Shown here: positions 5,378 to 53,029 of the stretch, one piece after another
Layout of the letters: every line of letters begins with the position of its first letter
Numbering within the stretch: the stretch's first letter is position 1
From: Sphaerolaimus hirsutus
Lineage: Eukaryota; Nematoda; Chromadorea; Monhysterida; Sphaerolaimidae
DNA length: 64,000 nt
Direction: 5' to 3'
NCBI GenBank assembly: GCA_964036195.1
Contig: OZ038455.1
Span: forward strand, 7,085,855-7,149,854
The notes under the pieces: generated by a model
Told to the model about the DNA's origin: nothing
Databases searched by the model: none
Seen by the model: the letters and a program-made list of their open reading frames with translations, nothing else
Translations under genes and position numbers: made by a program

Positions 5378-6595
5378 ATGTCGTCTTCAACGTCGACCGA
5401 TTCGGTTTCCAGTTATGCTTCGTCGACGAATTTGTTTGACGTTTGTTTTTTCCCCCTTTTCGTTCCTTCTTTAGTGGTGAGTGCTATGTTGCTTTCTATC
5501 ATTATTTTATAAATTTACATTGAATTTTTTCCCTTTTTCAAATTTCTTTCCCTGACAACGCCTTGTATCCGTCAAATCTCATGTAACGTTTAGCTCGCCC
5601 AAATCCGTCATACCCCCCCCCCCCCCCCAATGCAGGAATTGCTCGGCAACTGCACCCCAGTCTATCGTGTAACAATATCTGGCCAGCGATTACAGGTGCC
5701 ACTCCCAGAACCTGTAAAATGCCGTGAAAAGTGTAAAATGTACTGTAAAATGTGAAAAGTCCGGTAAAAGACTCAATACATTATTTTGGACAATTAGCAT
5801 GACATTTAACACTTTACATGGCATTTTACAGGTTCTGGTAGTGCCATCAGATCCGATGCAAATACCCGCCGGAATTCAAACATCTCGCCGTGCATCCAGC
5901 GGTGCCCGACGAGGTCGTTTACATCCCCCTGAAGGCCTTGTTCGAGGGTGAATTACACGGGCAAAACCTTGGCGTGCGCTACGTCACGGTCGATGAACAG
6001 CAGTTGGTTCGGGAATTTAGATTTTTAACAGCAGTTGATTGATGGCAAGCGCTTTTTTTTAAAAACGACGACGCTTTTTAAAAAAAAAAAGCGCAAGGAT
6101 ACCAGCAATTTTTAAAACCTGTATCTGTATATATATATGGACTCTGGACCTTTTTTGGTAGCTTTTTAGGTAACTTCTTGACATTTTTTAAAATAAAACG
6201 AAAAAAACGCGTTTAAAAAAAACGCTATTTAAAAAAAAGCGTTTTTAAAAAAAAAGGGGGACAGTTAAAAAAGCGCTATTTTCCATTACTAAGCAGTATG
6301 AATCTACCCCCCCCCTTTGAATAACTTCCTTGATTCTTGAATAACAAAAACTCCCGTGTATTCCTGTATTTCCTTATATTGAATACTAAAAATACAAAAA
6401 CATTTCAGTGTCGTCTGTGTTGCCAGGTTCGACGGTGGGCACCAGCACAAGGATTTCAATCTGTGCATCGAACACGAGGATGATGGCACGAAAGATGGAG
6501 TATCTGATGTGTTTGTATACATAAACATGTTGAAAGTGGGACCGAGTCATTTCGCGTTTACAATTGCTCCGGAGCTAGATGGGCCAAATATTTGA
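5378..6595 (+). CDS. Paralogue A: four-exon gene of unknown family
   Basis: Exons 5378-5440, 5636-5695, 5851-6002 and 6409-6595 join in phase (0, 0, 2) to about 160 residues, from a Ser-rich start (MSSSTSTDSVSS) to a stop at 6593. The core has blocks GQRLQ, CKYPPEF, LGVRYVTV and YINMLKVGP. It aligns along its length with the gene at 7196-8704: GQRL, C.YP.E, the L.G.L...LG region, VCV..F.G, IN M..GP.H and F...AP. The intron before the VCV exon is shared. The second intron (5696-5850) is an inserted MITE and has no counterpart in the paralogue. No signal peptide or membrane segment is obvious. Family unknown; the exon model rests on phase and homology to the neighbour. Confidence 0.6.
5696..5850 (+). 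mobile_element. Introner-like MITE forming an intron of paralogue A
   Basis: The whole 155-bp intron is one inverted-repeat element. The left arm GTGCCACTCCCAGAACCTG is the donor, and the right arm reads CAGGTTCTGGTAGTGCC, followed by ATCAG and the next exon. CAG precedes the donor and CAG ends the acceptor, as a 3-bp target duplication would give. Internal words tgtaaaatg, gacattt and acactttaca are shared with the introns at 7349, 37157, 38576 and 44956. Confidence 0.75.
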
Positions 6596-6658
6596 TTGAT
6601 TTTTAGTTTTTCGCGCTGTTTTTTATAATTAGAACCGTTAGAAAGTCGCCCCCCCCCT

Positions 6659-6815
6659 TAGTTGACATGGTGAGTAATGTCATCTCTTTTGGATCGCAAT
6701 TCAAAGATTGCTCGGCAGCCAAATAATTTTGCTTTCGCCAAATTATTTCGAAATGCTGCTGAGCAAGCTTTGAATTGCGATCCAAAAGAGTTGACATTTC
6801 TCACCATGACAACTA
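6659..6815. mobile_element. 157-bp MITE with long inverted repeats
   Basis: The ends are TAGTTGACATGGTGAG and, reverse-complemented, TAGTTGTCATGGTGAG. The inverted repeats run about 60 bases (CTCTTTTGGATCGCAATTCAAAG in both arms). TA at both ends would suit a Tc1/mariner-like TA duplication. It lies between the two paralogues and encodes nothing. The rest of 6600-7150 is AT-rich and empty. Confidence 0.65.
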
Positions 6816-7195
6816 CAGATATGAAGTACCATTTTTAATTTTTTTATATAGTGTGCCTGAAAATGTGCGTGTATGTTTGCCTCAGTTTTGCTCAATCGTT
6901 CTTTTAATTTTTTAATACATAATGAATTGTTAGATTGTCATTTTTTACTTCTTTTGTTACTCGCAAATATGTCGTTGTTATGAAATTGTGTAGAGTGTAC
7001 ATTTTTGGCAAAATGAAATGAATAAAAAGAAAAAATGACTTTGTATTTATGTTGATTTTTTTCAATGTGTATATAATGTGACACAAATTGAAATACCTGC
7101 AATTTTTCCAAATTTAATTTTGTATAAATTCATTATCATGATATAATTGTTCATTTCAGCTGCTATTTACCGCCCCCCTGCATACCACACACGCA

Positions 7196-8704
7196 ATGTC
7201 TCGCAGAACTGTTCTTCCATTTACCATTATGGGTCAGAGGCTGAAGGTCACCTGCTGTTACCCCAGTGAGCTTGAGTATGTGGCTGTTGAGGTGGAGCGC
7301 ACGCCCGTTGAGATCTGCTACGTCGGCCTGACTGCAGTCAATCTCCAGGTGTCACTCCCGGACACTGTGAAAGGCATTGTAAAATGTCATGCTAAGTGTC
7401 ACTTAGCCCGTAATTTTGCCATTTAAAACGACATTTTACATGAATTTGGATAATTAGCATAACGTTTGACATTTAGCATGACATTTGACATTTTACAGGG
7501 CCATTTACAGGGTCCGGGAGTGAGTGCCCGCAGGGTAAACTTGAAGCGGGCACACTCGGCGACAAAGAAATAATGGTGGGAAAACCTGAGTTGGTGGGGA
7601 TTTTTGTTTTTTTTACATTGAATGTTTTAGTTTTTCAGTGAATGAACTTTGTTCCCACGAGCCCCCCCCCCAGAATATTTTCTAGCTATCTATCCCTCCC
7701 AAAATGTGTGCCCAGATGTAAATTTGGTTGGTAAAAGTATTGGTTGATAGTTGACGTTTGAATCAACGTTTTCCAACCTGAGTTTGTGATTTTGAATTAC
7801 AGGACCTTTGAATGAGCGAATGCTTGAACCCGCAAAATTTTTGTGTTGAAGAAATAACCGAAAAATATATTTGGTTAAATTTCATTGATAAATAGTACTC
7901 AAACAACGTTTTTTATCAGTTGACATCTGTCAACTGCAGTAATCAAAAGTTATTTTTTTTTTAGTTATGTTGAAAACCATGTCACCCTGTTAAACCTGGA
8001 AGAATGTCCTGTAATACCTCCCCCCTCCGATCACTCCCTAATAATAATCCCTGGTGTGATATTTGTTTTTTATTTTTTTATATTCAATGCGTAACATTCA
8101 ATACGTAACATTAAGGATTGTCTGCGTGGGCAAGTTTTCTGGCAAGCCCATCAACTTGGTCATGGAACATAGGGATGGCATGGACAAGTTGTGGCTGGAG
8201 AATGTGCCCGTGAAGATAAATATGATTAGGATGGGCCCGAAACATGTATTATTTTCGGTTTCTCGTAAATGATTGCTTGGTATTTCTTTAATTTGTTCGT
8301 TTTGGTGGGCGTTCACTACATTTTTAAATGACACTTTTCACGAATAATATGATAATATTATATTTTTAAATGTAGTGTGCCTGAATCGATTAACTTTTGC
8401 ATTCGTACATTAGTTTTTTGCTGAAATTTGATTGTTTTTCGCTCAATTAATTCATTCGATTCTGACATTCATAAATGAAACAAATAAAAAAGGAATACAA
8501 TTGTGTTTGCATTGTCGGCAAAAGTTCACAGTGTTTCTAATGAACACTAATCATATTTATGACCTATGATGCATTCATTCGTTTGATTTGATTCGTACAT
8601 TGGTTACCGAACACACACCCTCACCCAAAAAAAAATTTCCAGCCACCTTTCCGGAGTACAGATTTGCTATCGCTCCAACCATGGACGTAGCAAGTGTTTT
8701 TTAG
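7196..8704 (+). CDS. Paralogue B: four-exon gene of unknown family
   Basis: Exons 7196-7348, 7534-7589, 8116-8264 and 8643-8704 join in phase (0, 2, 1) to about 139 residues. The start is MSRRTVLPFTIMGQRLKV and the end is ...RFAIAPTMDVASVF. An acceptor at 7159 would allow a further upstream exon, matching the intron before the equivalent exon of paralogue A. Blocks GQRLKV, CCYPSEL, the GKLEAGTLG region, IVCVGKF and INMIRMGPKH match paralogue A. The first intron (7349-7533) is a MITE at a site where A is uninterrupted. A also lacks the last intron. If the third exon is not spliced, the protein instead ends VSRK at 8272. Function unknown. Confidence 0.6.
7349..7533 (+). mobile_element. Introner-like MITE forming an intron of paralogue B
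   Basis: This is a 185-bp intron bounded by CAG|GTGTCACTCCCGGACAC at the donor and, at the far end, TTTACAGGGTCCGGGAGTGAGTGCCCGCAG. The arms pair over CACTCCCGGAC.CTGT and again over GCATTGTAAAATGTC. The termini match the consensus of the element at 5696-5850 but it sits at a different codon position, so the two insertions are independent. Confidence 0.75.
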
Positions 8705-14242: not shown

Positions 14243-17200
14243 TCACATGCTGGTGGTGGTGGGCGCCAAAGTGATGAGTGGCGTTTCCACAGTTGCCTCG
14301 GTGGTGAACGTGGTTGTGCGCGAAGTTGTAGGCGTGCGTGAAGTCGTAGGTCCAGTTGCTGGTGATGCCAACGCCGACCTAGCCTGATGATGAAGCAGGT
14401 AGTTGCCCGTGTCGCTTCCTGCGCGTTCGCGTGAGGTGAATTTGCGGATATCAGGCATGTGAACACTGTCTCTGTTCCTGGCTCTGACTTGTCCCTCATC
14501 AGCTGAACTTTCATCTGGCTGAACGTATGCTGATAGTGACTTTGCCATTCTGTCCTCGGTTTCTGCTCTCCTGGCAAATCTGACGGACTGTGTTGAGTTG
14601 GATCTGGCTCTCCTCTTGATTGCTGGTCTCAACTCTGTCTTGCGTACTTTTCTTTGTGGATAATTGGTCTCTTTCTGAGTTGATTTCTTGATAGTATATC
14701 TGATGGCTCTGAAGCATAGCCATATGCATTTGAACGGGCACACTATGCATTTCCATATGCATGTATATACGCATGGTGGAATCACTGGCTTCCCTGTGGC
14801 AATTCTCCAATTGTACCACAGGTATCCTGCAGCTACGATTCCAGCTATCAGGATTGTGATTCCCAGCAGCATTGCGATTGTGTTGATGATCACTTGAAAG
14901 GGTCCTTTCAACATTCCTCCCATAAAGTTAGTGTACCCTTTTGATACTCCAGATATATAGTGACCATATGCCTTGCCGATTCCTGCTGCCGTCTGTCCAA
15001 TTCCAGCTCCAATGCCTTCTATTGAATTTCTGATCACTCTGGGATCCAATGACATATCTGCTGTGTAATCAATCAACTGGTTCTGCACATGCTCCAAATT
15101 CTGTAGTCTCTGAATCTGGCCTCTGACATCCATGAAATTGGTCGCTCTGTTGACAATGTTGGTGAACAGGTGAGGCGCGTCAAACGTGAAGGCCTGCCAC
15201 TGTCCTTTCCATGTCATTTCAATTGGCGTCTCTGTGACATGCACCATTCCATGTGCGGACTTCCACTGTCCATGTTCATTTCTGTACAGGTGCGGTGTGG
15301 TGTGGCTGCAGTCCTCTTCTGGTGATTTCTCCACCAAGTCTCTGCTGCCTGGGCTCTTGAACCACAAGGGCCCATCTTTGTCTAATCTCATTGGTGTGTA
15401 TTTGTAGCATGTCTCTCCCACTTTTCCTGTCTGATAAATTATGTATGGCTGCACTTCCTTGCATTCCCAAAACATAATTGCTTCTCCAGCCCATTCTGCA
15501 TGAACATCCTGTCTTCCCAGCATGGCTCGAATCCCCAATGTTGGATCGATATGGAAAAGCTGAGTCAACATGTCCAGCTGGTTCTTGCGAAGTTGACATA
15601 GCTGATGCCATACAATCGCAAATTGTGCCTGAGTCATCTCTCTGACCACATGTTGCAGGAACTGAAACTTGGAGTTTCTGTCGTCCAATCTGGCATACAA
15701 TGTTCCACTGATTGTTGACTCTCTTGCCTCCACTATCTTTCCTGGCATTGCCCATTCCACAGGCACATCTTCTCTTCTGTCAAACTGGATGAATACACCT
15801 CCTTGATCGGTGTAGTACGTGTCTCCCGGGACACATTCTGAGCCAATTGGCCTCTTTGTCTTGTTGCTGTGGGAGTATGCTGCTTGCAATTTTGACACAA
15901 TAATTGTCTGGCCAGATATTTCTGATTTGAATCTGCCAATTCTCTCATATGCACATTGATGCTTGAAGTTCTCTGTATCCCACACTGTGATTCCATAATT
16001 GTGGTCTCTGCAATGTCCCATCATGGCTCTGCACTGGCTGAAATCTTGCAAGTCGCTGATTACAGTCTTTCCATCGAGTGAAGCCACGGTTCCTTCTTCC
16101 ATGTAGAAGTTACTGACGACATTCTCTTTGTCATGGCAACACCATGAATATTCCACATTCAAGGTTTGATTGGTTGTCCACACTCTGGGCTCCATTTCCA
16201 CCAAAGGTGTTCCTCTGAACATCTTGTGAATTCTTGCATAGTTACAGGCTACCACGCCAACTTGCTGGTATTTCTCAAAATTGCCTGTAATGCCTTTCGC
16301 TCCCCAGAAACTGGTGTGTGTGATGATCTCTTTGATTCTGATGTAGCATCTGTATGCTTTCTCTTTCTGTGGAATCTGTCTCTGTGCGTAAAGTGTAACT
16401 TTCATTGCCTTGACAAAATTCCTTGGTGGGATATGGCACTGCACTTCTTCAGGAACTGTAAGTGCATGTCCATGCCTCCCACTGGTACAAATTTGGTACT
16501 TCTGGCTTTGTGAACTGATCACCTGTTCCACAGGATGATCCTTAATTGCATCCTTGAATCTCTCATAAGTCTGCATTTCTCTGACAGATTTTGGTGGCCA
16601 TTCTGAAGGCAAAGGCGGCAATCCATGATGCGCTGCCAATGATGGTGGCCTTACTGTCGAGGTTTCTAGAACGTATGTTCTGGAAAATACTTCGCTGTAA
16701 GCTTTGCCAGCTTTTCTCAGCGTTGCTGACTCTGACATGCCTGTCAGCATCAATACCATGCACAGCATTCCAATCACCAGACTGCTGGTGGTTGCTGTGG
16801 CTTTCCCTGTTGCATTCCTCAGGACTCTATCTGGTGCTGAGTTCCTCTGAGCAGGGTTTGGTACAGAGTCTCTGTTCGAGCCCTGATTTCTGACATGTTT
16901 CTGGACAATTGCTGGGTCCAGTAAATCCACTTTGACTGTCACTGCTGTCTCTGGGATATCCATTGTCTTTGAATTGATTTCCAGCGGATACAATTGATTG
17001 AGTGGTCTGCTGACCACATTTCTGTTGGCAGTTCTGACTTTTGCTGAGCGAATCTGTCCATCTTTGCTGGGCTCTAACTGCTCGATGCGACCCATCCTCC
17101 ATGCACCTCTGGGCATGTTTTCTTCATAAATCAGCACAACTTCATTCACTTTGGGTTCTTGAGTCGCTGTCAATCTGCCTTGTTTGTGTGTCACCTGAGT

Positions 17201-20200
17201 CCTTTCCCTCAAGCTCGGGATATACTCTTGATGCCACAAGTCCCAGAACTTATCCAAAGTTTGCTGGGTTGTCTCCCAATATTTCTGCAGTTTCGCTGCG
17301 TTATCCATTCTGGGCACAAATTCTTCATCTTTGTCTGCGTCAAACTGTGGTGCTCCAATCTGACCTTCCCCTGTCAGGATGTCCTTTGGCGTCAGCACTC
17401 TGAGGCTCTTTACATCACCATAGATGTAAGAGATTGGCCTGCTGTTGATCACTGCCTCGACTTCTGGCAAAAGTGTCAACAATTCTTGCAGAGTTAACAT
17501 TCTGTGCCCCACAGCTGCTTTGAAATGTTTCTTGGTGATGCCCACCATTCTTTCATAGACTCCTCCCTGCCATGGTGCCATAGGAGTAGTCATGTTCCAC
17601 TGGATTTGTTGCTGTGAGCAGTAAGTCTGTACTGCTCCACTTTTGACCATTTCTGACCATTCCTTTCCAGTATTGATGGCCTTGTCAGTGCTTGTGCTGA
17701 GCACTTTCTCTGTCAATTTGAATTGCGTAGCATTGTCTGAAATCACTGCCTCAGGCTTTCCACGCCTGGCGATGAATCTCCTGACTGCGTTCAGGAATTC
17801 CTGTGCTGTCATGTCCAGCACACTTTCCAGGTGAACTGCACGTGTCACCATACATGTGAACAAACAGATCCACATTTTCCTGTGATCTTTGTCCATTTTG
17901 TACCAAACTGGTCCCAAATAATCCAAGCCCGTGTACTGGAACGGTCTGACTCTCTGAACCCTGGTTTCTGGCAAATCTGGCATTGGTGGAAGCTGGTACG
18001 GCTTCGCTCCCAATTTCTTACAGGTTGGGCAGGTTCTGGTCACATTGTAGATCACCCGTCTGCCCTGTGTAATCCAGTACTTTTGTCTGATCGCTGCCAA
18101 TGTGTGTTGCACTCCTGCGTGCATCAATTTCTCATGCTGGTCTCTGACGATCAGCTGAGTCACTGTAGCCATTGCTGGCAACAGTATGAGTGGCACTGTG
18201 ACCTCCTGTGGGTCTGTATGCTCCATTCTGCCGTGGCACTTCAGGATTCCATCCTGATGCATTTGCACATTGAGCCATTTGATCAACTGCTGGTCTGCAG
18301 CTGTTTTCTTGCTATTCTGGCTGCCTCTGCTGTGGCCTGTTGCCAGAATCTCTGCCACTCTTTTGTAATGATTTTGTTGCGTCACTTTGATCCAATATTT
18401 CAACGCAATCTCTCTCTCTTCAATACTGATAATTCCCTGTGGTTTTATTGTACCACAGATACTTTTCATGATTTCTGACAATCCATTCTGACTGTCATTT
18501 TTGCTGCGCTTTTTGTGCATCTGTCGCACAAATCTCATCACGTATACTGTTGCATCCAGTAATTTTGTCAGTGATGAGAATCTCTGAATCTCAATTCCCA
18601 ATGGGTTGCTGTGCTTGCTTTCATCAGCTTGCACATTGCTGGCATCTGGGTCACTGACCACTTGCTGTGTGGCGCCCAAGTAAATTGGACTGGCTTTTGG
18701 GAACTTGAGCTCTTCTTTCTTGATTTCTGCCATTACTTCTGGCGTAACTGGCTCCACTTTCGGCTCTGGCCATTCTCCAGTCATTAGCCATTCTGGCCCC
18801 TTCCACCACAGGTTACTGCCTTCCAACTCTGACATATTCATGCCTCTTGTGGCCATGTCAGCTGGGTTCTCCAGTCCTGCGATGTGTCTGATGTGCATGT
18901 TTTCTGTCTCACTCTGAATTTTCCTGATTTCATCCAATCTGTTCTTGACAAAACATGCCAGTGGCTTCGCTGTTGTTAGCCACTTCAGACAACAGGTTGA
19001 ATCTGACCATACAACTGTTTGACTGAATTTGACGTCCTTGAGCTCTTTGTGAATAAACTTTGACATTCTGCTGCCGATCAACATTGCTAACAATTCCAGC
19101 CGTGGAATTGTCACTTCTGGTTTCTTTGGAGCGAGTCTCAATCTGGAGTACAGCAGGCTTGATGTGCCGCTGTCATTTTCTGTTTTCTGGCATATGTATG
19201 CCGCTGCGCTGTATGCCATTGCTGAGGCATCAACGAAAATGTGCAGTTGTGCATCTGCACCACTCTGATAATTCAAATTTCTGTTGAACTTGATCCGTCC
19301 AACTTTGAGCAACTCTGTCTCCAATTGCTGCCAAATTGCTGTCTGTTCCTCAGACAGGGGGGTATCCCACTCTTTGGCACTTGGTCCTGAATGCCATAAC
19401 GTCTGCAAAAATCTCTTTGCTGGCAGTAGGACAGGACTGACGAGTCCCATTGGATCAAAACATCCCGCAGTCACTTTTGCAACTGTCCTTTTAGTGGGAA
19501 ATTTGATTTTCTGGTCAGTTTCTGATAATTGTGATTGCTGGACTGTCTTTGGCGTTTTCAGCCACATCTGGTCGCTTTCTGTGTCCCATTTCATTCCTAG
19601 GACTGTTGTGACAATTTCCTTGGCTACATCTGACTCTGCCAATTGCCAAGTAAAGTTCTTATTGTTGCTGTTCCATTCTCTCAGATTCATCTGTGCCTCT
19701 GTGAACAGCACTTTGGATTCCTGGTACAATTCGATTGCTTTCTGCTCTGTGTCCACACTGAGGATCAAATTATCCACATACAGATTTTCATCGATCAATT
19801 TTGCATTTTCTGTGCCAGCTTGATTCAAGTGGTATCTGACTGTCAGCGCCAGCAGCGCTGGGCTGCAGATTATACCAAATGGTACTCTGGCAAATCTGTA
19901 AATTTGAATGTTGTCCTCCATAGATGGTTTCGTGGGATCCTTGTACCACAGAAATCTTGTCACATTTCTGGCACTGTCCTGCAGACTAATCTGCAGAAAC
20001 GCTTTCTCTATGTCTGCGACCAGTGCAATTCCATGCAATCGGAATCGCATCAGCATCCCTACCAGCTGTGGTAGTATAACTGGACCGCGGTACATGCACT
20101 CATTCAAGCTTGGCATGCCTGGCGGTTTCGCTGAGGCATCATATACCTCTCTGACCTTTGTGGTAGTTTTCTCTGGCGTTATCACTGGTTGATGAGGCAA

Positions 20201-22945
20201 TATATGGAACTTTCTGCCATCCATAATATCCTCTTGGACTTTCTCAATTACTTCTTGCTCCTCTTGTGCTTTCATGATTGCCTGAATTTTCTCCAGTAAT
20301 TCTGGGTCTCTCTTGAGCCTGTTGGTGAGGTACCTGAACCTCTTGAACGCCATTGCTTTGTTATCTGGGAGTTCATGCAAATTTGGTTTGTACATGAACT
20401 TTACAGAGTACCGTCCATCTGGGTTTCTCTGTACACTCTCATTGAATTGCTTGATGGCCTCATCGTCCTCGACGAGGTCTGGCTGGTCCATTATGCCAAT
20501 GGTATCCAGTCTGTCCATGTCTTTGACATTTGGTACAGGAGCAATTGACAACGGTGCTTCCTCGTACCACTTTTCTCTCTGAATTTGATGCACAATTGTG
20601 TTGACCACCACCGGATATGCGCCATCCGTGGTCCATTGATTTCTGTTGCTCGTCAGCTGCCCACCTCCCATCAGCAATCCCAATTCTGATGGAATGACAT
20701 ACAATCCTGACGGAAGTCTGGTGGTGCTGGTGTTTTTGGACATCAAGTCCCAGAAATAATTCAAGCCTACTATAATGTCTGGCTTGAACTTGCACTCTGT
20801 CCCTTTTTCCTTGGGAATTCTGTCTGCAAAGTAACTCTCATCTGGGAAGTACTTCTGCAGGTACTTTTCGTCCTGTTCTGACACAGGCACTTTGACTTGT
20901 TCTGTGGTCAACGTCGGGACCACATCAGCCACCATATCAACTTTCTGGCCATTTCTGAGCCGCATTCTGAATTCCACTTGCTGTACTACTTTATAGTGCG
21001 GCTTTTCATTTCCGAATGTGTACACCTGGATGTGGTGTTCACCTGTACTCTTCAAATTGAGTTTCTTGGCCACTTTCTCTGACATGTACGTTCCCTGGGA
21101 TCCTGTGTCCAGGAACGCTTGAATCTGTAGTGGTGGCTGTTCAGGCTCCATCTCTGTATCCATTTCTGAAGCCTCAATCACGGTTCTGGCTGTCATCAAC
21201 ATTGACATATTCCTGTTTACTGACAGGTTCACTGACGTATTTTGTTGCTTTGTATTTGGTTCTGTAACCACTGTGCTGGATATGGTTTCTGTCTCTACCA
21301 CTTCTGGTCCAGCTTCTTCCACAGTGACACAATTCACTGTGGCCTTTCTCTGTTGGCTCTGTGCTGGTCGACCGGCCATCGGCACAGACTTTCTGCCATT
21401 GTTTGCTGATTGCTGGCCACTCTGTTGACCATTTGCTTTGAATGCTGGAATTTGCCGTCCAGCGTTTCCATTGCTATTGTCACCAAATTTCTCTGGGCAC
21501 ACCGAAGTGTGGTGCCTATTGGACTTGCAATAGAAGCAACTTCTCGTAAATTGACATTGATTCATGTAATGCCCTTTCTGCAGGCATCTCAGGCATCGCT
21601 CTGCCTTTGACAAAATCACTCTCCTTTCTCTGGCAGTTTTGAACTTTGGACACTTATCATTAAAGTGTAATTGCTGTGTGTCATTGCAGAACACACACGG
21701 CCTCCCAGGATTCATGAATCCAGCCTGTGGTGCACTCTGACCATTCTGGATCACAGACATGCTCCCTGTGCTGGTCCTTGGGTTCTCTGGCCCTCTGAAT
21801 CGATTCCCATTGCCTTGGAATCGATTATTGAATTGCTGTGCGCGTGGATTATTCCCGAATCCTTGGCGCGATTGCTGAACTGGTGCCTCAGTTTGCTGTG
21901 CGTGCTGTACAGCCTCACTGAGCGCTAGCTGCTTGCCAAACAGCTTTCTGAATATTTCCACCGTCAAGGCTTCCTCAGTTCCCTGTTCCTTCTGGATTTC
22001 TCTGAGAACCTCGGGTGGCACTTTCTGTTGCAGCAGGCTCAACAGCATTGGATGTTCTACTGATTCACCCAGTGACTCCAACTGCTGGAGCAGCCTTTCA
22101 ATTGCATCAAACAAAATTCTCATATCCTGACAGGTATTCCTGGCCTGTCGCAACTTCATGATATTACTCATCAGCGTGTTTCTGACCACAACTGGCTGGT
22201 CATATCTCTTTTTGAGCATTGCAATTGCGGGTGCATAATTTTCTGCGGTCACACTCAATCCACTGATCATGCCAAATGCTGAACCTTTCAGCAAGCTCCT
22301 CAAGTATGAGAACTTGGAAATGTCCTCCAAATCTGTCCGATTGTGGATGTGGGATTCGAACATTTGCCACCATGATCGAAATTTGACAATTTCCCCAGTA
22401 AACTGTTCCACTTCCAGTTTCTGTAATTTGACACTTTTTGCTGTGGTCGCATTGGTTGAACTGGCCCCCGGAGCAGCTCCCTGAGCTGTCAGAGCCATCT
22501 GGGCAGCCATCTGCTGTATGAATGCTGTATTGACTTCATACATGGTATTTCCGCTCTGTTGCTGGATCATGTCTTGCAACTCTTCGATGTACACATTCAT
22601 GGCTGCAATTTTCTGTGTCACCAAGTCTGACATATTTGCATATTCCTCATATGAGTCTTGGTATATCTTTTGTTCTTGTTCCATCTGGTCGGGTTCGTCA
22701 ATGTCCTTGACGACATCCCTCCATGCGTCAAATTGAGTTCTCACTGCAGTCATTGCACTTTGCAACTTTGCACCCTCCTGTTTGACAGATGCAATCACTC
22801 TTCTCATTTCTGTTCTCTTTTCTTCCTTTGTTGCTCCCGCAAATATCTCTGGGTCATATTTGGCATATTCTCTTGCCAATCTGCTGTCCACCCTGTGCTT
22901 TGCTGGCCCCAGGGTCTTTCTGATGTGACCCGTTGGTGAAACCAT
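14243..22945 (-). CDS. BEL/Pao Gag-Pol-envelope-like polyprotein, single ORF
   Basis: About 2900 codons without a stop. I chose the ATG at 22945 (MVSPTGHIRKTL) because the second family copy begins with the equivalent ATG at 59943. Order, approximate residues: Gag with a DUF1759-like part (170-330); two CCHC zinc knuckles (451-464, 470-483); aspartic protease DTGS (613); reverse transcriptase with VADIEKAF (978) and YVDN (1056) in place of YVDD; RNase H with FVDAS, RLELLA and WSDST (1239-1315); integrase with an HHCC region and catalytic D1675, D1737, E1798; DUF5641-like tail to about 1990. Then comes a hydrophobic, signal-like segment (2053-2072), a Cys-rich ectodomain of about 600 residues, a membrane anchor near 2690-2715, a Cys-rich juxtamembrane stretch and a basic Ser/Thr-rich tail. 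The last part is envelope-like by layout. Which viral glycoprotein family it derives from I cannot say. Confidence 0.9.
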   Translation of the reverse strand: MVSPTGHIRKTLGPAKHRVDSRLAREYAKYDPEIFAGATKEEKRTEMRRVIASVKQEGAKLQSAMTAVRTQFDAWRDVVKDIDEPDQMEQEQKIYQDSYEEYANMSDLVTQKIAAMNVYIEELQDMIQQQSGNTMYEVNTAFIQQMAAQMALTAQGAAPGASSTNATTAKSVKLQKLEVEQFTGEIVKFRSWWQMFESHIHNRTDLEDISKFSYLRSLLKGSAFGMISGLSVTAENYAPAIAMLKKRYDQPVVVRNTLMSNIMKLRQARNTCQDMRILFDAIERLLQQLESLGESVEHPMLLSLLQQKVPPEVLREIQKEQGTEEALTVEIFRKLFGKQLALSEAVQHAQQTEAPVQQSRQGFGNNPRAQQFNNRFQGNGNRFRGPENPRTSTGSMSVIQNGQSAPQAGFMNPGRPCVFCNDTQQLHFNDKCPKFKTARERRVILSKAERCLRCLQKGHYMNQCQFTRSCFYCKSNRHHTSVCPEKFGDNSNGNAGRQIPAFKANGQQSGQQSANNGRKSVPMAGRPAQSQQRKATVNCVTVEEAGPEVVETETISSTVVTEPNTKQQNTSVNLSVNRNMSMLMTARTVIEASEMDTEMEPEQPPLQIQAFLDTGSQGTYMSEKVAKKLNLKSTGEHHIQVYTFGNEKPHYKVVQQVEFRMRLRNGQKVDMVADVVPTLTTEQVKVPVSEQDEKYLQKYFPDESYFADRIPKEKGTECKFKPDIIVGLNYFWDLMSKNTSTTRLPSGLYVIPSELGLLMGGGQLTSNRNQWTTDGAYPVVVNTIVHQIQREKWYEEAPLSIAPVPNVKDMDRLDTIGIMDQPDLVEDDEAIKQFNESVQRNPDGRYSVKFMYKPNLHELPDNKAMAFKRFRYLTNRLKRDPELLEKIQAIMKAQEEQEVIEKVQEDIMDGRKFHILPHQPVITPEKTTTKVREVYDASAKPPGMPSLNECMYRGPVILPQLVGMLMRFRLHGIALVADIEKAFLQISLQDSARNVTRFLWYKDPTKPSMEDNIQIYRFARVPFGIICSPALLALTVRYHLNQAGTENAKLIDENLYVDNLILSVDTEQKAIELYQESKVLFTEAQMNLREWNSNNKNFTWQLAESDVAKEIVTTVLGMKWDTESDQMWLKTPKTVQQSQLSETDQKIKFPTKRTVAKVTAGCFDPMGLVSPVLLPAKRFLQTLWHSGPSAKEWDTPLSEEQTAIWQQLETELLKVGRIKFNRNLNYQSGADAQLHIFVDASAMAYSAAAYICQKTENDSGTSSLLYSRLRLAPKKPEVTIPRLELLAMLIGSRMSKFIHKELKDVKFSQTVVWSDSTCCLKWLTTAKPLACFVKNRLDEIRKIQSETENMHIRHIAGLENPADMATRGMNMSELEGSNLWWKGPEWLMTGEWPEPKVEPVTPEVMAEIKKEELKFPKASPIYLGATQQVVSDPDASNVQADESKHSNPLGIEIQRFSSLTKLLDATVYVMRFVRQMHKKRSKNDSQNGLSEIMKSICGTIKPQGIISIEEREIALKYWIKVTQQNHYKRVAEILATGHSRGSQNSKKTAADQQLIKWLNVQMHQDGILKCHGRMEHTDPQEVTVPLILLPAMATVTQLIVRDQHEKLMHAGVQHTLAAIRQKYWITQGRRVIYNVTRTCPTCKKLGAKPYQLPPMPDLPETRVQRVRPFQYTGLDYLGPVWYKMDKDHRKMWICLFTCMVTRAVHLESVLDMTAQEFLNAVRRFIARRGKPEAVISDNATQFKLTEKVLSTSTDKAINTGKEWSEMVKSGAVQTYCSQQQIQWNMTTPMAPWQGGVYERMVGITKKHFKAAVGHRMLTLQELLTLLPEVEAVINSRPISYIYGDVKSLRVLTPKDILTGEGQIGAPQFDADKDEEFVPRMDNAAKLQKYWETTQQTLDKFWDLWHQEYIPSLRERTQVTHKQGRLTATQEPKVNEVVLIYEENMPRGAWRMGRIEQLEPSKDGQIRSAKVRTANRNVVSRPLNQLYPLEINSKTMDIPETAVTVKVDLLDPAIVQKHVRNQGSNRDSVPNPAQRNSAPDRVLRNATGKATATTSSLVIGMLCMVLMLTGMSESATLRKAGKAYSEVFSRTYVLETSTVRPPSLAAHHGLPPLPSEWPPKSVREMQTYERFKDAIKDHPVEQVISSQSQKYQICTSGRHGHALTVPEEVQCHIPPRNFVKAMKVTLYAQRQIPQKEKAYRCYIRIKEIITHTSFWGAKGITGNFEKYQQVGVVACNYARIHKMFRGTPLVEMEPRVWTTNQTLNVEYSWCCHDKENVVSNFYMEEGTVASLDGKTVISDLQDFSQCRAMMGHCRDHNYGITVWDTENFKHQCAYERIGRFKSEISGQTIIVSKLQAAYSHSNKTKRPIGSECVPGDTYYTDQGGVFIQFDRREDVPVEWAMPGKIVEARESTISGTLYARLDDRNSKFQFLQHVVREMTQAQFAIVWHQLCQLRKNQLDMLTQLFHIDPTLGIRAMLGRQDVHAEWAGEAIMFWECKEVQPYIIYQTGKVGETCYKYTPMRLDKDGPLWFKSPGSRDLVEKSPEEDCSHTTPHLYRNEHGQWKSAHGMVHVTETPIEMTWKGQWQAFTFDAPHLFTNIVNRATNFMDVRGQIQRLQNLEHVQNQLIDYTADMSLDPRVIRNSIEGIGAGIGQTAAGIGKAYGHYISGVSKGYTNFMGGMLKGPFQVIINTIAMLLGITILIAGIVAAGYLWYNWRIATGKPVIPPCVYTCIWKCIVCPFKCIWLCFRAIRYTIKKSTQKETNYPQRKVRKTELRPAIKRRARSNSTQSVRFARRAETEDRMAKSLSAYVQPDESSADEGQVRARNRDSVHMPDIRKFTSRERAGSDTGNYLLHHQARSALASPATGPTTSRTPTTSRTTTFTTEATVETPLITLAPTTTSM

Positions 22946-24156
22946 TTTTGCTGATGAATTTTCCTTCACTGATTCTCTTTATAGTGCGTCTCCTGTGACG
23001 CCTGTGACGCTTCTCTGCGTCTTTCTGTGTAGTGCTCTGTGCACCACGGATTTGTTGTGCCACGCACAATACCAATGCAGTCCTACAGGCCCCTGACGTG
23101 TTCTCACGCGTTGACCTTTACTGCACTGGCACCAGGTGTGTTCCTAAAGCCCCTGACGTGATTGTTTACACGCGTTGACTTCAACACACCGGTCAAATCC
23201 ACCTGGACAATAAACAATTTATTTGCCCAGCAGTGTGCGCCCAAAGAGGGTCCGTACACACTTTTCCTGAGCGCTCTGGCGCTCTTTCTGGCACGCCTGT
23301 GTGCCCCGTGACCTCGCCGGCCACTTGCTTTCCTGAGCGGCTCCTGTGCCGCTGTGCGCAGTGCTGCGCTTGCCGTGTTTCTTGTGACACGTTTCTGTGC
23401 ACTCTGGTGCACTTTCTGATTCTGGGCAGTGCACTGTACACTGCTCTGCAATTGCGCCTGTGCAATGCAGAATTCTGGCACTTTTGTGCTGTCTGATCTG
23501 ATGGTACCGAGCAGGCACAGCGTGTATATTTGATGGGAGCTCCGCAAAGCCCCTACACGCTACCAAGTATCCTAATACTTGGTTTTCAAATCCACTCTCT
23601 GTCAGCTACAGCCCTCTATCAGCTACAGCCCTTTGTACACTGATACCCCTACTTTTGCACTTCCGAGGTATGAGTCCACTCTTACCCAGTGGAGCGAGGG
23701 ACCTCCGCGAATGCCCAAAAAACAGCCCTTTGACTAGCGTGGCTCTGTGGCGATCCTGTCTCCGTCAGGTCACCCTCCCTTGGCATAGGAAGGACGTGCG
23801 AGCGGTCACTGGCGTCCGGATGTCCAGGAGCGTCCAGCGAAAGTTTGACCACCGTCCGACAATGACTCCTTGTCAAATGCCGGTGCCGCCCAGCGTCTAG
23901 CACCTTGCCAGAACACTGGTGAAAGCTGCCTGAAATCCTGACAGGCTTGTCAGAACTCCAGTGTCCTCCGCGCGTGAGCGTAGAACCGCTCCCAAGATGT
24001 AGACAGGAGTGCCGTGACTTTGGCACAATGCTGTCTGCAAATCAACAGCCAACGCTCAGCCAAGGCCAATTGATGTTCAGCAGGACTTTTGAAGTTCTGC
24101 CAACTGCCGCACAATGTCCGTTCCGGCTTGGTGATAGCACAATGTCATGCAATCAC
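22946..24156 (-). other. BEL/Pao untranslated leader
   Basis: About 1.2 kb between the primer-binding site and the gag ATG. It has no stop-free frame in line with gag, and the short antisense and sense ORFs over it are not conserved as proteins. The second copy keeps most of it (58979-59942), so its sequence is probably functional RNA (packaging or translation), but that is inference. Confidence 0.6.
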
Positions 24157-37068: not shown

Positions 37069-40000
37069 CTACACACCTGTCTCGAAATCGCCCATGCTGT
37101 CCACAGTTCCATCACCGGGGGCTGCACCACCGCTGCTAGACTGATAGTAGCGAGGTCTGGATCAATCACAGATCCTGTAAAGTGTCAAATATCATGTCAA
37201 ATGTCAATTGTCATGTTGTTTTTTTGCGCAGTGTGGTGAATTTTTTTTGCTGTCGGCTGGTAAATCATAAATGTATACACTCAGTCATAACTTTTCATGC
37301 ATAATAGCTAGTAAGTGATAACATTTAAATGCTCACATTTATGATTTACCGACCAACAGCAAAAAAATTCACCACACTGCGCAAAAAAAACATGACAATT
37401 GACATTTGACATGATATTTGACACTTTACAGGATCTGTGATTGATACCTGGAGCCTCGGCCCACAGGGCGCGTTCCGGGCGCGGCCACGTATGCAGGTCG
37501 GCTGAGACTGCTAGATGCCACGCCAGAAAACGATCGCTGAATCGTGCGGTAATTATTCACGGCGCCGGGGATGAGGGACGGGTTGTTGGGGTTGACGCGG
37601 TCCGTGCACAATGCCTCGTAGTTAACCTGAGACAGTGCCAAACTTATGATAACATTGAACACTTGACAAAGTTTGGAACTGTTACCTGCTCCTGCGAACG
37701 GTTCGAAGCGCGGCTACCGCGGCCCGCCATGCGGCTGCCGATGCTCATATCCATCACTTCGTCTGCAGTAAATTTGGAGTAAAATGTGATTGGAAATTGT
37801 AACAAATCTTTGCATAATCTAGCAAACCTTGAAGCGATGTGACAGCCCCGCAAATGTTGCCGTGTTCTTTGGCCAAAGAGTCAATGCATTCGCGCAGTTG
37901 CCTCAGCTCCAATGCCGTAGAATCAGCTGCGGGTGTGCTGGCGTGGCCACCTTGTGCACTTTTCCCTGAGTGAACAAGTTACAAGAAAATAGGGTTCAAA
38001 TGGGTCTGACTTTTTGGGATCGGGATCAGGATTGGAGTTTTGGGGTCGGGATTGGATTTGAGATCGGGATTGGCAATTTTTCGGGATCGGGATTGGGGTC
38101 TAGGGGTCGGGATTGGGGTTTCGGGTTCGGGATTGAGGATTTGGGATTGGGGTTTCGGTACTGGAGTTTTGTGGTCGGAATTGGAATTGAGATCGGGATC
38201 GGCAATTTTTCGGGATCGGGATTGGGGTCTAGGGATTGGGATTGGGGTTTCGGGTTCGGGATTGAGGATTCGGGATTGGGGTTTTGGGATCGGGATTGGG
38301 GTTTCGGGATCGGGATTGGGCGATCGGGATTGGGGTTTCGGAATCGGGACTACAAAATCCCGAAATTTCTCGGTAGTCGGGGCCCCATTTGAACCCTACA
38401 AAAAAATCGGTATCGACATTAAAAATAGCGCACTCGGTGTTGGGTTGGCAAACGTAATCATCTCCATGGATTCAGCACGCCCGCCGGCAACGACTACAGG
38501 GGGGTTTTGAGGCAGAGAGGGGCGCGTTGGTTCCTCTTGCGGGTGCGGTTCCTGCCGAACGCGATGGTGCGCCACCTGGGTACAGTTTTAGATCATGTAA
38601 AGTGTCAAATATCATGTAAAGTAAAGTGTCAAATATCATGTAAAGTAAAGTGTCAAATATCATGTAAAGTAAAGTGTCGAATGTTGCCCAAGTGATAATA
38701 AACAATTATTACTGAACTTTCTGTGACATGAGATTTGACACTTTACATGATCTGGGATTGGTACCTGCTGAACCTGCGGCTCGGACACCTGCGGCCTGAC
38801 TGCTTGCGGCTCGGCCGCCTGCCGCCTAGCCGCCCTGGGACCACAGCAGCAGCCGCGGCCGTTTTTTTGGGCGCGCTGCAAAATATGCAAAGAATTCTTT
38901 GGAGAAATTTTGTGTGTTGAAGTGAATTTTTCAGTTTTGGTACTCACCAAAACCAAACACCGGAGAAAAATAACGATGCCGACGGCGAAAAGGTTGCTGC
39001 CAGTTTGGTATCCAGCATCCGTGATTTTGTAATACCAGCTGTCCAGAAAATTGACAATGAGTCTCAAAAGGGAGACAATCAAATCAACCTTGGCATTTAA
39101 TTGCTGGATGGCGATCTTGATTTCCTCCAGCTGTAAACATGACAGATTTGTTTGATGATGTAATGATATTTACTAGGGTTGACTTTTGTTTTTTAAATTT
39201 TAAATAAAATATATTTAAATTAGGGGCATTGAATGCTTTTCAAACTGGTTTTTGAGTTTTATATTTTCAATTTTTTGCCAACCCTAGCAATTTTATCAAA
39301 AACTTCCACCAAATAAAAATTCTACTTTTCTATTCTACTTTTCTATTCTACTATTTATGTACCTGTTCCAGCATGTTCTCATCCGTGAGGACATGACCAC
39401 CATAATCATCACCCACAGTAGGCACATCACCAGAATCAAAACCGTCCACATTGTATTTGGCACTTTTCCTGCTTATCACTGAAGCGACATGAACAGAATC
39501 AGTGGGGGCAGTAAGTGCACTGGTTGGCGCAGCTGTGGTGGGTGATGGAATAGAGTTAGTGGTTAGATCCATCACCACTGAAGACGTGACCGGTGGTGCA
39601 GAGCTAGAACCAAAAAAATTAATAACCAAATGTGTTATTTATTCTTTATAATAAAAATTCAACACTGATCAACTCACACTGTAGTGGATGGTGAGTAGAA
39701 TTTTGGTGCAAAATCATGACACAAGTTTTGAAAATATGCCTTGTCCTCCAGCAAGATGCGTGCAGCCTCTTGCAAACCACATTTCATTGGTTTGAGGGGG
39801 GTTGGGGTGGGGGGTTTTGGTTCAGGGGTGGTTGCTGAAGTAGTGTCAGGTTGGGTAGTGGTGAAAGGTGAAACAGGCGCTGGCGTAGTACCATTGGGTG
39901 GTGAAGGGGATATCTAAAAGGGTGGATAGATAGCTATTTTTTCACATTATTTGATAGATAGCTTACGAAACACACCCAAATTATTTCCGGAGTACAGCGC

Positions 40001-44396: not shown

Positions 44397-46371
44397 TTAA
44401 TTCAATCTTGGTTGATTCATGTAGTAGTTTAAAAATACATGAATGAATAGAATCATAAGAAAATGTTCTCCTGAATTAACATCAAAAAGTGCTGTTTGAA
44501 GAATACTTTTCATCCTAAAAAAGCCCTGGGAAAAATTTCCTTGCCTCAAAAAATTATTCAAAACATATGCATGTAAAATAGGTGCACCGTGTAAAATGAA
44601 AACATCATTCATAGATCTTACAAAGCCATTTGCCACGTTCCCCATTGCCAACATGTTTGTAAAAATGAGTCCTCTCAATACAGCGCTCATGTTGAAGGTC
44701 AACATAACGTCGTGAATGAACTGCTCATTTGTAAACCCTTGTAGACTACCATTTACACCCATAAATTTTCCAAGGCCCACCATACATAGAAAAGAAGCTA
44801 TGGTGTTTCCAAATGACATCTGAAATATAATTATGTGTCAAAAAATTTTTTATTTGTAGACATGTAACATACAAAAATTATCAAGATTGCTGCATCATCC
44901 AGGGTGAGTAAGTTGCTCATATTTGGTGCCCAAAATGTGAATCTATCCATCATTCCTGGGAGTTCTAGCCAATGTAAAGTGTCATGTAAAGATTCAAATG
45001 TGATACAATTCTTTTGACATTTTGTAAGGAGACAGTAAAATTGCTACTTTGATTAACTACATTTTATAAGACTTTTTAGACTTTGCATGACATTTGACAC
45101 TTTACATGACACTTTACATTGAATAGAATGTAACTGGATCGCACAAGCTGGCCGAGAGTCCTGTGAAATTAAATTTTTGAAATTTTGAAGAAAAAATATG
45201 TATATTTAAAATTTTACCTAAAATTACTGAAGGTGTTAAATTGCCTAGAATCCATGTCTCGTAGAAATGGGTGTGCTTCTGTATTCACCACTCCGCTCCC
45301 AACAGTAACAATTGGTTGTAATAATCTGTACATCCTAAGAAAACAATTTCCCGTCCTTGAAACTGCATAACCATTGGTATTTTGTAACATTGGTTGATAA
45401 TATTGCGCTCCATTTTGATTAATTTGGGGCATGTAAAAAAAGTTATTTACAAATTTTTTATTAAAAATGTAAAGAAATTACACATTTAATACCATATTTC
45501 TTATAATAGAATGACATAACTCCTATATAAGGGTGAATTAAAAAGTAATTTTTGCAATGGTTAATATATAACAGGAGTATTCTATTAGAAGAAATATAAT
45601 ATACATAAACAAACTGCTGTGTTGGGGGCTGCATTCTATTTTGAGGATTGAATTGCTGTAATGGGGGGTTTGTTTGAGGGAGGGGTTGTTGGGTGCCGGC
45701 TTGTGTAACCACAGGACATGTAGATGAAACAGAAGAAGCAACAACGTTTGATTGTGTTGGGATCTGAATTTTGGGATAATTTATAGAAAATTTTCATAAA
45801 AAATAGATTTCAACTTTTAAAAAACCTGGGCATTTTGCTGTTGTGTAGCCCAAAATGTATTCATCACTTGTGGTGTATTTTGTCTATTAGGGTCATTCTG
45901 TTCTACATTGACTTGATTATTCACACCATGCTGTAATTGGTGTGAAATAAAATTTACATTAAAAATATAAAAATTGAGTTTCAAATTTAAACCTGATTTT
46001 GTTGAGTATTCAATGGTTGGGGATTTATTTCCACATTTGTTACAGTCCTATTTTGACCAGTGCCCACTACATTAGATGTCGAAGGTTCATTTGGGTTTTC
46101 TTCATGGCCGTGATCTTAAAATAAAAAATTAATGACTTTTATTCAATAGAGGTGTGTGATAAAATATAAAAACCTGAGTCGAAGTCTCTGATAAATTTGT
46201 CAAGGTCAAAACTTATTTCATTGTCGATGTTGTCTCCTCCGATGTTGTCCCCAGGTCTATAAAAATAAAATTTTTAACAAGGAAATAAATAAATTTGTAG
46301 TATACAGACCTTTTAGTTGCATTTGCAAACAAAAATGCAGACAAAATAGTGATGTATAAACTCATATACAT
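44397..46371 (-). CDS. Nine-exon gene, Gln/Asn-rich protein with hydrophobic C-terminus
   Basis: Exons (high to low): 46310-46371, 46174-46256, 45993-46114, 45826-45930, 45611-45763, 45218-45432, 45135-45160, 44873-44955, 44397-44819. Phases agree and the sum is 1272 bases (423 residues). A signal-like start (MYMSLYITILSAFLFANA) leads to an acidic stretch, then Gln/Asn/Pro-rich segments, then a hydrophobic C-terminal domain (SFGNTIASFLCMVGLGKFMG, VLRGLIFTNMLAMGNV, EHFLMILFIHVFL). An AATAAA lies just past the stop. The acceptor of exon 6 reads AC, not AG, so either it is non-canonical, mutated, or two genes meet here. Intron 7 (44956-45134) is MITE-derived. Family unknown. Confidence 0.55.
44956..45134 (-). 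mobile_element. Probable introner-like MITE, intron 7 of the nine-exon gene
   Basis: Inner arms CAATGTAAAGTGTCATG and CATGACACTTTACATTG are perfect inverted repeats. CCAG occurs both at the donor side (gatCCAGttac) and at the acceptor (ctcCCAG|GA). The donor is then CCA|GTTACA, which is weaker than in the other elements, and the outer termini have diverged. Confidence 0.55.
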
Positions 46372-51994: not shown

Positions 51995-53029
51995 AACCTA
52001 TGCTCACCTCTCTGGCAACCCTTCGAATATTTTCAGGAGAAATCTAAAAACCTCTTGAAACGTTCATGGCTAAGTTGGACATACATTTGACCGGCAAATC
52101 ATGCCCTACAAGTGTAGGTATATAGTTCACGTTTGTCAACTAATTCTCTTGTGCATGCTGTGCACCAGAGAATTTTTTTGTCAATTTATGGTCGCTCACC
52201 GCGGTTACAACCTTGACTTGTTTTCTGCTATAACCCCTGATTTGCAAGGTCGAATTTCGCGCCATTGGCCTAGAATGTGTCCCCTGGCTCGTTGCCAGTG
52301 CACACATTCAATTGAATTGCTCCATGAGCGATTTAAGGTGTTTTTATTGGCATGTCGTTTGCGCTGGTTGTTTTTTCGTTGATGTGCCATTTTCAAGCCA
52401 TTGTGACATCAAAAATGACATTTTCAGTCACTATCGTGATTCGTGACTGACGGGCTGAGCTTGGGCCTGTACATGCAGATTTTTGCCCTGCAGCATGACG
52501 ATGACATATTTAAGCAATAAGCATAAGAATGTAATTATATTTCTCCTGTGAGATGTGTATTTACATGAAGAATAAGATCAAAATCATAACAAAGAGAAAG
52601 TATAATATTTAAGTATGCTGTCTTTGAAAAATAAAAATGACAAAAATGAGAAAAATAAAATGAAGTTCATCACAAAAGAAGATACTATATTTATCCATTT
52701 AAGCCGGCCCATAAATGATAATGTAAAGTTACTCACAAGAGAAATTATGTGGATAAGCTTTTAAAACCTAGAATTGGGCAGCAGCTGTTCCAAAAATTTT
52801 CATAATTATTTCTCTTTTGTGTGATGTTTTTCATTGTTATTTATGGGTCTGGTTAAGGGGATAAATATTGTTATTTTCTTTTGTGATGAACCTGTCATTG
52901 TTATTTATGGGGGAGACCATACTTTAATATCATAAATATATTCTCTTTGTGATATTTTGGCCATATTGTTCCCTTATTATTACCCACCTACTGTATTTCT
53001 ACACATTATCCCCACAACAATTGACCCCC

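Follow-up and report, generated by a model that had tools for sequence, protein, structure and literature searches.

The window analysed here is a 64,000-nucleotide stretch of the nematode Sphaerolaimus hirsutus (contig OZ038455.1, designated C7, positions 7085855-7149854; assembly GCA_964036195.1, 348.5 Mb in 762 contigs) that carries two neighbouring paralogous genes on the plus strand, gene A (5378-6595) and gene B (7196-8704). Each gene contains an intron that coincides with a copy of one family of miniature inverted-repeat transposable elements (MITEs). The model of gene A, drawn from an open spliced frame and its alignment with B, comprises exons 5378-5476, 5636-5695, 5851-6002, and 6409-6595, the first of which is without support from B. 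Gene B, drawn from its spliced frame and the alignment with A, comprises exons 7196-7348, 7534-7589, 8116-8264, and 8643-8704; an alternative in which the third exon is read through to a stop whose last base is 8272 reached 196 when a provisional model was scored. The spliced proteins reach a local alignment score of 201, compared with a mean of 28 and a maximum of 55 in 1000 shuffles, and 44 of 109 aligned residues are identical. At the first, second, and third codon positions, 54, 75, and 42 of 109 bases are identical, with nonsynonymous divergence (dN) of 0.57-0.58 and synonymous divergence (dS) of 1.9 (LWL85) or 2.8 (NG86), indicating that the two genes have been maintained as protein-coding and that the duplication is old.

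Intron A (5696-5850, plus strand, 155 nt) and intron B (7349-7533, plus strand, 185 nt) are predicted phase-0 introns of the GT..AG type, neither with a length that is a multiple of three. Intron A follows GQRLQ and reads CAG/GTGCCACTCCC...GTAGTGCCAT CAG/ATC, where slashes mark the exon-intron borders; intron B follows VNLQ, 32 codons downstream by the count in A and 34 by that in B, and reads CAG/GTGTCACTCCC...GAGTGAGTGCCCG CAG/GGT. The inverted repeat starts 1 nt inside intron A and 3 nt inside intron B, and ends 4 nt and 10 nt, respectively, before the intron end. Its arms match at 40 of 45 positions in A and 44 of 50 in B (Jukes-Cantor distances 0.120 and 0.131), and other genomic copies place the first element base at the G of the GT. 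A CAG target-site copy lies on either side, at 5693-5695 and 5848-5850 for A and at 7346-7348 and 7531-7533 for B; the 3' copies, delimited by other genomic copies, are also the predicted 3' splice sites.

Retaining intron A or intron B leaves a truncated frame, as does splicing to the internal acceptors examined, at 5831 for A and at 7499 and 7510 for B, with scores of 33-92. The end of intron A at 5850 appears to be the best choice among the acceptors, if not the only one, and both introns are likely to be spliced as drawn. These results bear out much of a first-pass annotation of the locus, which had claimed that A and B align well, that each reads through the site of the other's intron, that both introns are whole inverted-repeat elements of one family with matching termini, and that the first element base is the first intron base.

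The annotation had further described the remaining intron as shared and free of the element. This holds for the intron at 6003-6408 in A and 7590-8115 in B, which has phase 2 and a GTTGGT donor (with an AAG acceptor in B) and occupies the same position in both genes and in a third paralogue described below; an early model with a GG donor was wrong, the phase-2 GTTGGT donor fitting all three. It is not the sole other intron. B also has a phase-1 last intron at 8265-8642 that is not a copy of the MITE and that A and the third paralogue read through. Because the third paralogue likewise ends without it, this intron was probably gained too, from a source other than the MITE. By eye, it contains a small inverted repeat at ~8320-8383 with CACTACATTTTTAAAT arms.

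When the genome was searched with the A protein, 14 exons matched; with this query, intron-free relatives nearer B may have escaped. A genes were found in the window and on contigs C1, C281, and C16, with an extra A copy on C16, and matched B genes in the window and on C1 and C281. A third paralogue is present in two genomic copies, on C15 (L041) and C16 (L042). It encodes YPVTISGQRLQFRCSYP...VVYIGLKGIEGDLENVTLGN...DRP in a single open exon that runs through both insertion sites, reading CGC CTG CAG TTT CGG at the A site, with one CAG in place of A's CAG-element-CAG, and an uninterrupted GGC ATC GAG GGT GAT at the B site. The copy L042 retains the old phase-2 intron. The three paralogues are roughly equidistant, with 44/109, 48/117, and 48/111 residues identical. 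Since the third paralogue reads through both sites, introns A and B are best read as gains, and two gains are fewer than the at least three losses needed on any tree, whatever the branching order.

Over the main block of alignment with the window, the other copies of the gene pair show identities of 98.8% (C1), 97.7% (C281), and 92-93% (C16); it is possible that C281 is an unplaced haplotype. All carry both MITE introns, 155 or 169 nt long for A and 185 nt for B. Identity to the C16 copy is 150/155 plus a 14-nt gap for intron A and 180/185 for intron B. The exons flanking intron A are open on C1, C281, and C16, those flanking intron B are open on C1 and C281, and on C16 the analysis covered a conceptual translation of the exon before intron B. 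The extra A copy on C16 also has intron A. As the introns are common to the copies on these contigs, the gains are not recent.

The MITE family is mostly ~140-200 bp long, with ends GTGCCANTCCCRGACCCT and AGGGTCYGGGANTGCCCC; one terminal repeat begins GTGCCA and the other usually GGGGCA. A genome search with the A element gave 77 matches from 40 scored of 1336 candidate places. From these matches a first set was assembled of the 35 MITE copies outside A genes, of which 30 had both ends within limits and 29 were analysed, one being dropped for its length. A second set, sampled from C1, consists of the first 53 of 100 listed exact-left-end places, or 50 loci, of which 45 have a recognisable right end; here the left end was fixed by the search pattern. 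The exact left end occurs 4635 times in the genome (2352 + 2283) and its reversed control not once. It is preceded by CAG in 2068 cases and by CTG in 1757, together 3825 of 4635 (82.5%). The same 3-mer stands on both sides of 26 of the 45 copies (15 CAG, 9 CTG, 1 CGG, 1 CAT), compared with a mean of 13.6 and a maximum of 23 in 10000 shuffled pairings, and on both sides of 14 of the 29 (7 CAG, 7 CTG). While the left end begins GTG, the right end begins GGG in 30/45 and 21/29 copies. Mixed pairs with CTG at the GT end and CAG at the other number 4/45, against 1 of the opposite kind, and 4/29 in the first set; these may be CTG insertions with a later mutation to AG. An exact match to the repeat end was not found in viral contigs.

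Further copies are also predicted introns. Among 25 peptides joined across removed MITE copies, two matched Pfam families above cut-off and three gave weak matches below it (E 0.01-0.08). With its element removed, L051 (C7:25.818 Mb) matches Peptidase_M13_N above the curated cut-off (E 2.6e-8, residues 16-99) across the junction at residue 44; this label comes from Pfam alone, as a PDB search with the same peptide gave chance-level matches only. L082, likewise joined, matches LRR_6 (E 4.5e-12) in two stretches, the best of which (73-95) lies downstream of the junction at 40. Upstream of the junction the resemblance is limited to a weak LRR_1 stretch (23-34, below cut-off) and to what can be judged by eye, and L082 is a probable intron-making copy in a leucine-rich repeat gene. 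In a separate observation, two copies at L085 (C1:3.19 Mb), with CAG and CTG duplications, flank an apparent single exon (AGRYLVAGADLPAGALVIRDTPF..CSQCF) that is SET/SMYD-like by eye; no Pfam match to it was found. The joined flanks of a CTG/CAG copy at L103 (C1:3.67 Mb) are open for 176 aa on the strand that gives the element GA as its first bases; this may be a non-canonical GA-AG intron, and the frame has no family match.

Within the window, two more copies would interrupt a single gene on the minus strand. Copy C (38576-38764) is a predicted phase-0 intron reading CAG/GTACCAATCCC...CTGTACCCAG/GTG, whose 5' arm fits the family and whose 3' arm is partly replaced (Jukes-Cantor distance between arms 0.047). 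Copy D (37157-37447) is a predicted intron of the same gene, reads CCAG/GTATCAATCAC...GATTGATCCAG/ACC, has arms that differ by 0.028, and contains a second palindrome. A third intron of this gene, H (37627-37685, minus strand, 59 nt), has a 14-bp inverted repeat with 13 matches and represents a different or decayed element. A protein search with the part of the gene that has H and D spliced out found no relatives, so that the introns C, D, and H are predicted from reading frames alone. Positions 1-4 of the terminal profile, which was built from seven of the A, B, C, and D arms, are matched in the window by these arms only, which do so by construction; other places in the window match the inner part of the profile or have E of at least 0.3.

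Taken together, these findings suggest the following mechanism. The MITE would be a non-autonomous DNA transposon whose target is CWG, either CAG or CTG, and whose insertion duplicates these 3 bp. When its GTG end lies downstream of CAG, the product would be CAG/GTGCCA...CCCC CAG/, in which the element supplies the 5' splice site (GT) and the duplicated target CAG the 3' splice site, and splicing would restore the old coding sequence. A copy in the opposite orientation at the same site would begin GG, so that only CAG/GT...CAG/ would form a ready GT-AG intron. The GT itself may have arisen by a change in one end of a GGG-type repeat. A and B would each have taken one copy, at different codons, after separating from each other and from the third paralogue. 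The explanation as a whole, in which a CWG-targeting MITE made introns A and B after the paralogues separated, is assigned a probability of about 0.86. Its observed basis comprises the element ends, the target duplication, the intron positions, the frames, the empty sites of the third paralogue, and the size of the family; independent gains from one MITE family after the duplication are the best reading of this evidence. The first-pass annotation had proposed two such gains, and the third paralogue supports it, with the amendment that the gains are shared by segmental copies. Its picture of a tandem pair with MITE-made introns in A and B stands as well; a third intron difference between the two is not due to the MITE, and the family makes further predicted introns elsewhere.

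Several observations weigh against this explanation. The donors, GTGCCA and GTGTCA, are without the G usual at position +5, and better-looking acceptors are present within the element. An in-frame alternative acceptor at 5841 in A would add three codons at a score of 188 versus 201. The B insertion site has GAG, not CAG, in A and the third paralogue; the CAG on its 5' side is read from the sequence of B. Protein searches found no relatives of A, B, or the minus-strand gene; their proteins also gave no Pfam match above cut-off and one chance-level PDB match. MITE ends were not found around a DDE_Tnp_4 transposase at the one locus of one family examined. Among the 15 CAG/CAG copies sampled from C1, the open span has a median of 87 (sense) and 89 (antisense) codons, with no general excess; the medians are higher, at 130 and 118, among the 9 CTG/CTG copies, for which splicing is not expected. 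On these spans, most copies are not demonstrably introns. At random flank positions the median open span is 66 and the 90th percentile 109; in the first set, which was picked by similarity, all 7 CAG/CAG spans reach at least 109 codons and the 7 CTG/CTG spans range over 63-116. The family is best described as a general MITE of which some copies appear to be introns. The idea that CTG/CTG copies are reversed GG-AG introns, for which Eurytemora affinis (PMC5714493) offers a comparison, is unsupported, though it may hold: 13 peptides joined across nine such copies (seven on C1, L058 on C4, L044 on C13) had no Pfam match.

The weak donors and the alternative acceptor in A would also fit elements that interrupt the genes without clean splicing, so that A and B are decaying or use other acceptors such as 5841, and the extra A copy on C16 is indeed partial, its protein match ending after GELH. 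This alternative is unlikely given the open flanking exons in the pair copies, the retention of both introns on C1, C281, and C16, and the protein constraint seen in codon-position identity and in dN of 0.57 against dS of 1.9-2.8. A second alternative is that both introns were already present before the three paralogues diverged, and that one or the other, or the two together, later disappeared from each gene. For nematodes, PMC9169325 gives loss of introns as generally more common than gain. Besides the number of losses it needs, this scenario conflicts with arm divergences of 0.12-0.13, far below the paralogue dS of ~1.9-2.8, and with the uninterrupted CAG target of the third paralogue at the A site, and it has very little probability. 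Least probable is that the MITEs landed in older ordinary introns whose own sequence was later trimmed away: although the window has several fragments of related elements at other places, including one at 48.7 kb within a likely ordinary intron, the sequence outside the arms is limited to 1 + 4 nt in A and 3 + 10 nt in B, which are element ends and target copies, and both sites are intron-free in the third paralogue.

Flush inverted repeats at AG/GT..YAG occur at 4 donor positions in 2620 pairs, compared with 461 in 919685 for other donor contexts. As this enrichment is only about threefold, the main weight falls on the third paralogue, on the frames of A and B, and on the family as found across the genome. 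Folding z-scores are -10.4 for intron A, -8.7 for B, -7.1 for C, -26.4 for D, and -4.5 for H, whereas the four ordinary introns in A and B range from -2.7 to -1.0. The prediction has YAG acceptors of the arms, TTTTACAG for example, in paired positions (unpaired probability 0-0.2), and those in loops reach up to 0.53. Folding of the arms may thus hide internal acceptors. However, the terminal AG, with an unpaired probability of 0.34-0.98 versus 0.47-0.59 in ordinary introns, is no freer than in those except in H, and the GT is predicted to be paired in introns A, B, and C; a role of the fold is accordingly offered as no more than a suggestion.

The window contains other mobile elements. A foldback element with 61-bp arms, 92% complementary, lies between genes A and B (6659-6815). 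An element at 44963-45128 with CCAG on both sides does not, by eye, fit a GT-AG intron, and a different inverted-repeat element on the minus strand (52661-52891) has the end CAG/GTTCATCACAAAAG and no AG near its other end. At 14243-22978 (minus strand), a BEL/Pao retroelement has one open frame of 2911 aa that includes a match to a Monjiviricetes-type fusion glycoprotein; a second BEL/Pao copy at 59.9-63.7 kb (plus strand) is split over several frames. Matches at 10.8-13 kb and 24.5-33.5 kb to DNA polymerase B (PF03175, E 2e-19) and, weakly, to an integrase core (E 2e-4, below cut-off) belong to what we take to be a Polinton-like element, whose remaining parts are guessed from frames. Together with the retroelement, this fits an animal-like eukaryotic host.

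The target site suggests a transposon superfamily. The NuwaI group of the PHIS (PIF/Harbinger) superfamily, as described in PMC4482050, has 5'-CWG-3' target-site duplications (TSDs) and terminal inverted repeats (TIRs) of 12-61 bp that usually start with GGG, and is reported from animals. The MITE resembles it in its CWG duplication, which is the mark of NuwaI (3825/4635 left ends; 24/45 copies CAG/CAG or CTG/CTG), in having inverted repeats, and in the GGG at one of its ends. It differs from that description in its other end, which is GTG, and in the negative result for MITE ends around a transposase at the one locus read. A NuwaI-type (PIF/Harbinger) transposase may move the element. The genome has at least 163 matches to DDE_Tnp_4 (PF13359), counted from 150 scored of 306 candidates. 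Many of these matches have near-equal scores, and most contain in-frame TGA codons or unspliced introns. An assignment to CACTA/EnSpm was rejected, as the target copy is separated from CANTCCC (variable at its third base) by four bases, GTGC at one end and GGGG at the other; in CACTA/EnSpm elements the TIR begins CACTA directly at the 3-bp TSD.

A wider proposal is that a NuwaI-type MITE with thousands of copies acts as an intron factory, in which a CWG target that is CAG serves as the acceptor, a GGG-to-GTG end gives the donor, about half of CWG insertions would be ready-made introns, and the excess of CAG suggests that ~300 of 4635 copies were kept as introns. This proposal is tentative, its odds falling a little short of even. 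Copies preceded by CAG outnumber those preceded by CTG by 311 (z of 5.0 for independent copies and of 2.9 for threefold clustering), which could be the expected outcome of retaining spliceable insertions in genes and could also reflect copy duplication or transposase bias.

The MITE introns appear to belong to an already known kind, the introners: intron-making transposons for which, in Gozashti et al. 2022 (PMC9860276), one carried splice site with the other from target duplication is already on record. Similar whole introns lie in unrelated genes, as predicted for A/B, the minus-strand gene with C and D, L051, and probably L082. They are absent in homologues, A and B lacking each other's intron and the third paralogue both, and the arms together with matching flanking 3-mers are signs of transposition. 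No introner tied to Harbinger was found in the literature searched. Clean records of intron gain are few, and here filled sites, empty sites, a target duplication, and thousands of copies occur in one genome, so that one can count there how often new introns arise, in which orientation, and what becomes of them. The case would show that ordinary transposon target choice can supply a splice signal. If true, the superfamily assignment links introners to a known transposon group whose TSD is a ready 3' splice site. The family would be a new introner member, unusually well documented within a single genome.

Its features are shared with known systems to different degrees. Like the introners of PMC9860276, the family has introns that resemble one another across unrelated genes over exactly the length of the intron, TIRs, and a TSD, and like the Chrysochromulina introner in the legend of Fig. 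2C of that paper, it would bring one splice site with it, the other coming from the duplicated target. It differs from the introners set out there in its 3-bp CWG duplications and unequal GTG/GGG ends, and in the setting, within one genome, of tandem genes that each gained one intron beside a third paralogue free of both. The introner elements of Amoebophrya, as described in PMC7789003, are also inverted-repeat introns predicted to form hairpins, with 3-5 nt direct repeats that overlap exon borders; their splice sites are mostly non-canonical, in contrast to GT..AG here. Fungal introner-like elements with parallel gains, as outlined in PMC4457414, similarly provide new introns from a multiplying family that can be compared across related genes, whereas they are described in PMC9860276 as being without the TSDs and TIRs that mark the family in S. 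hirsutus.

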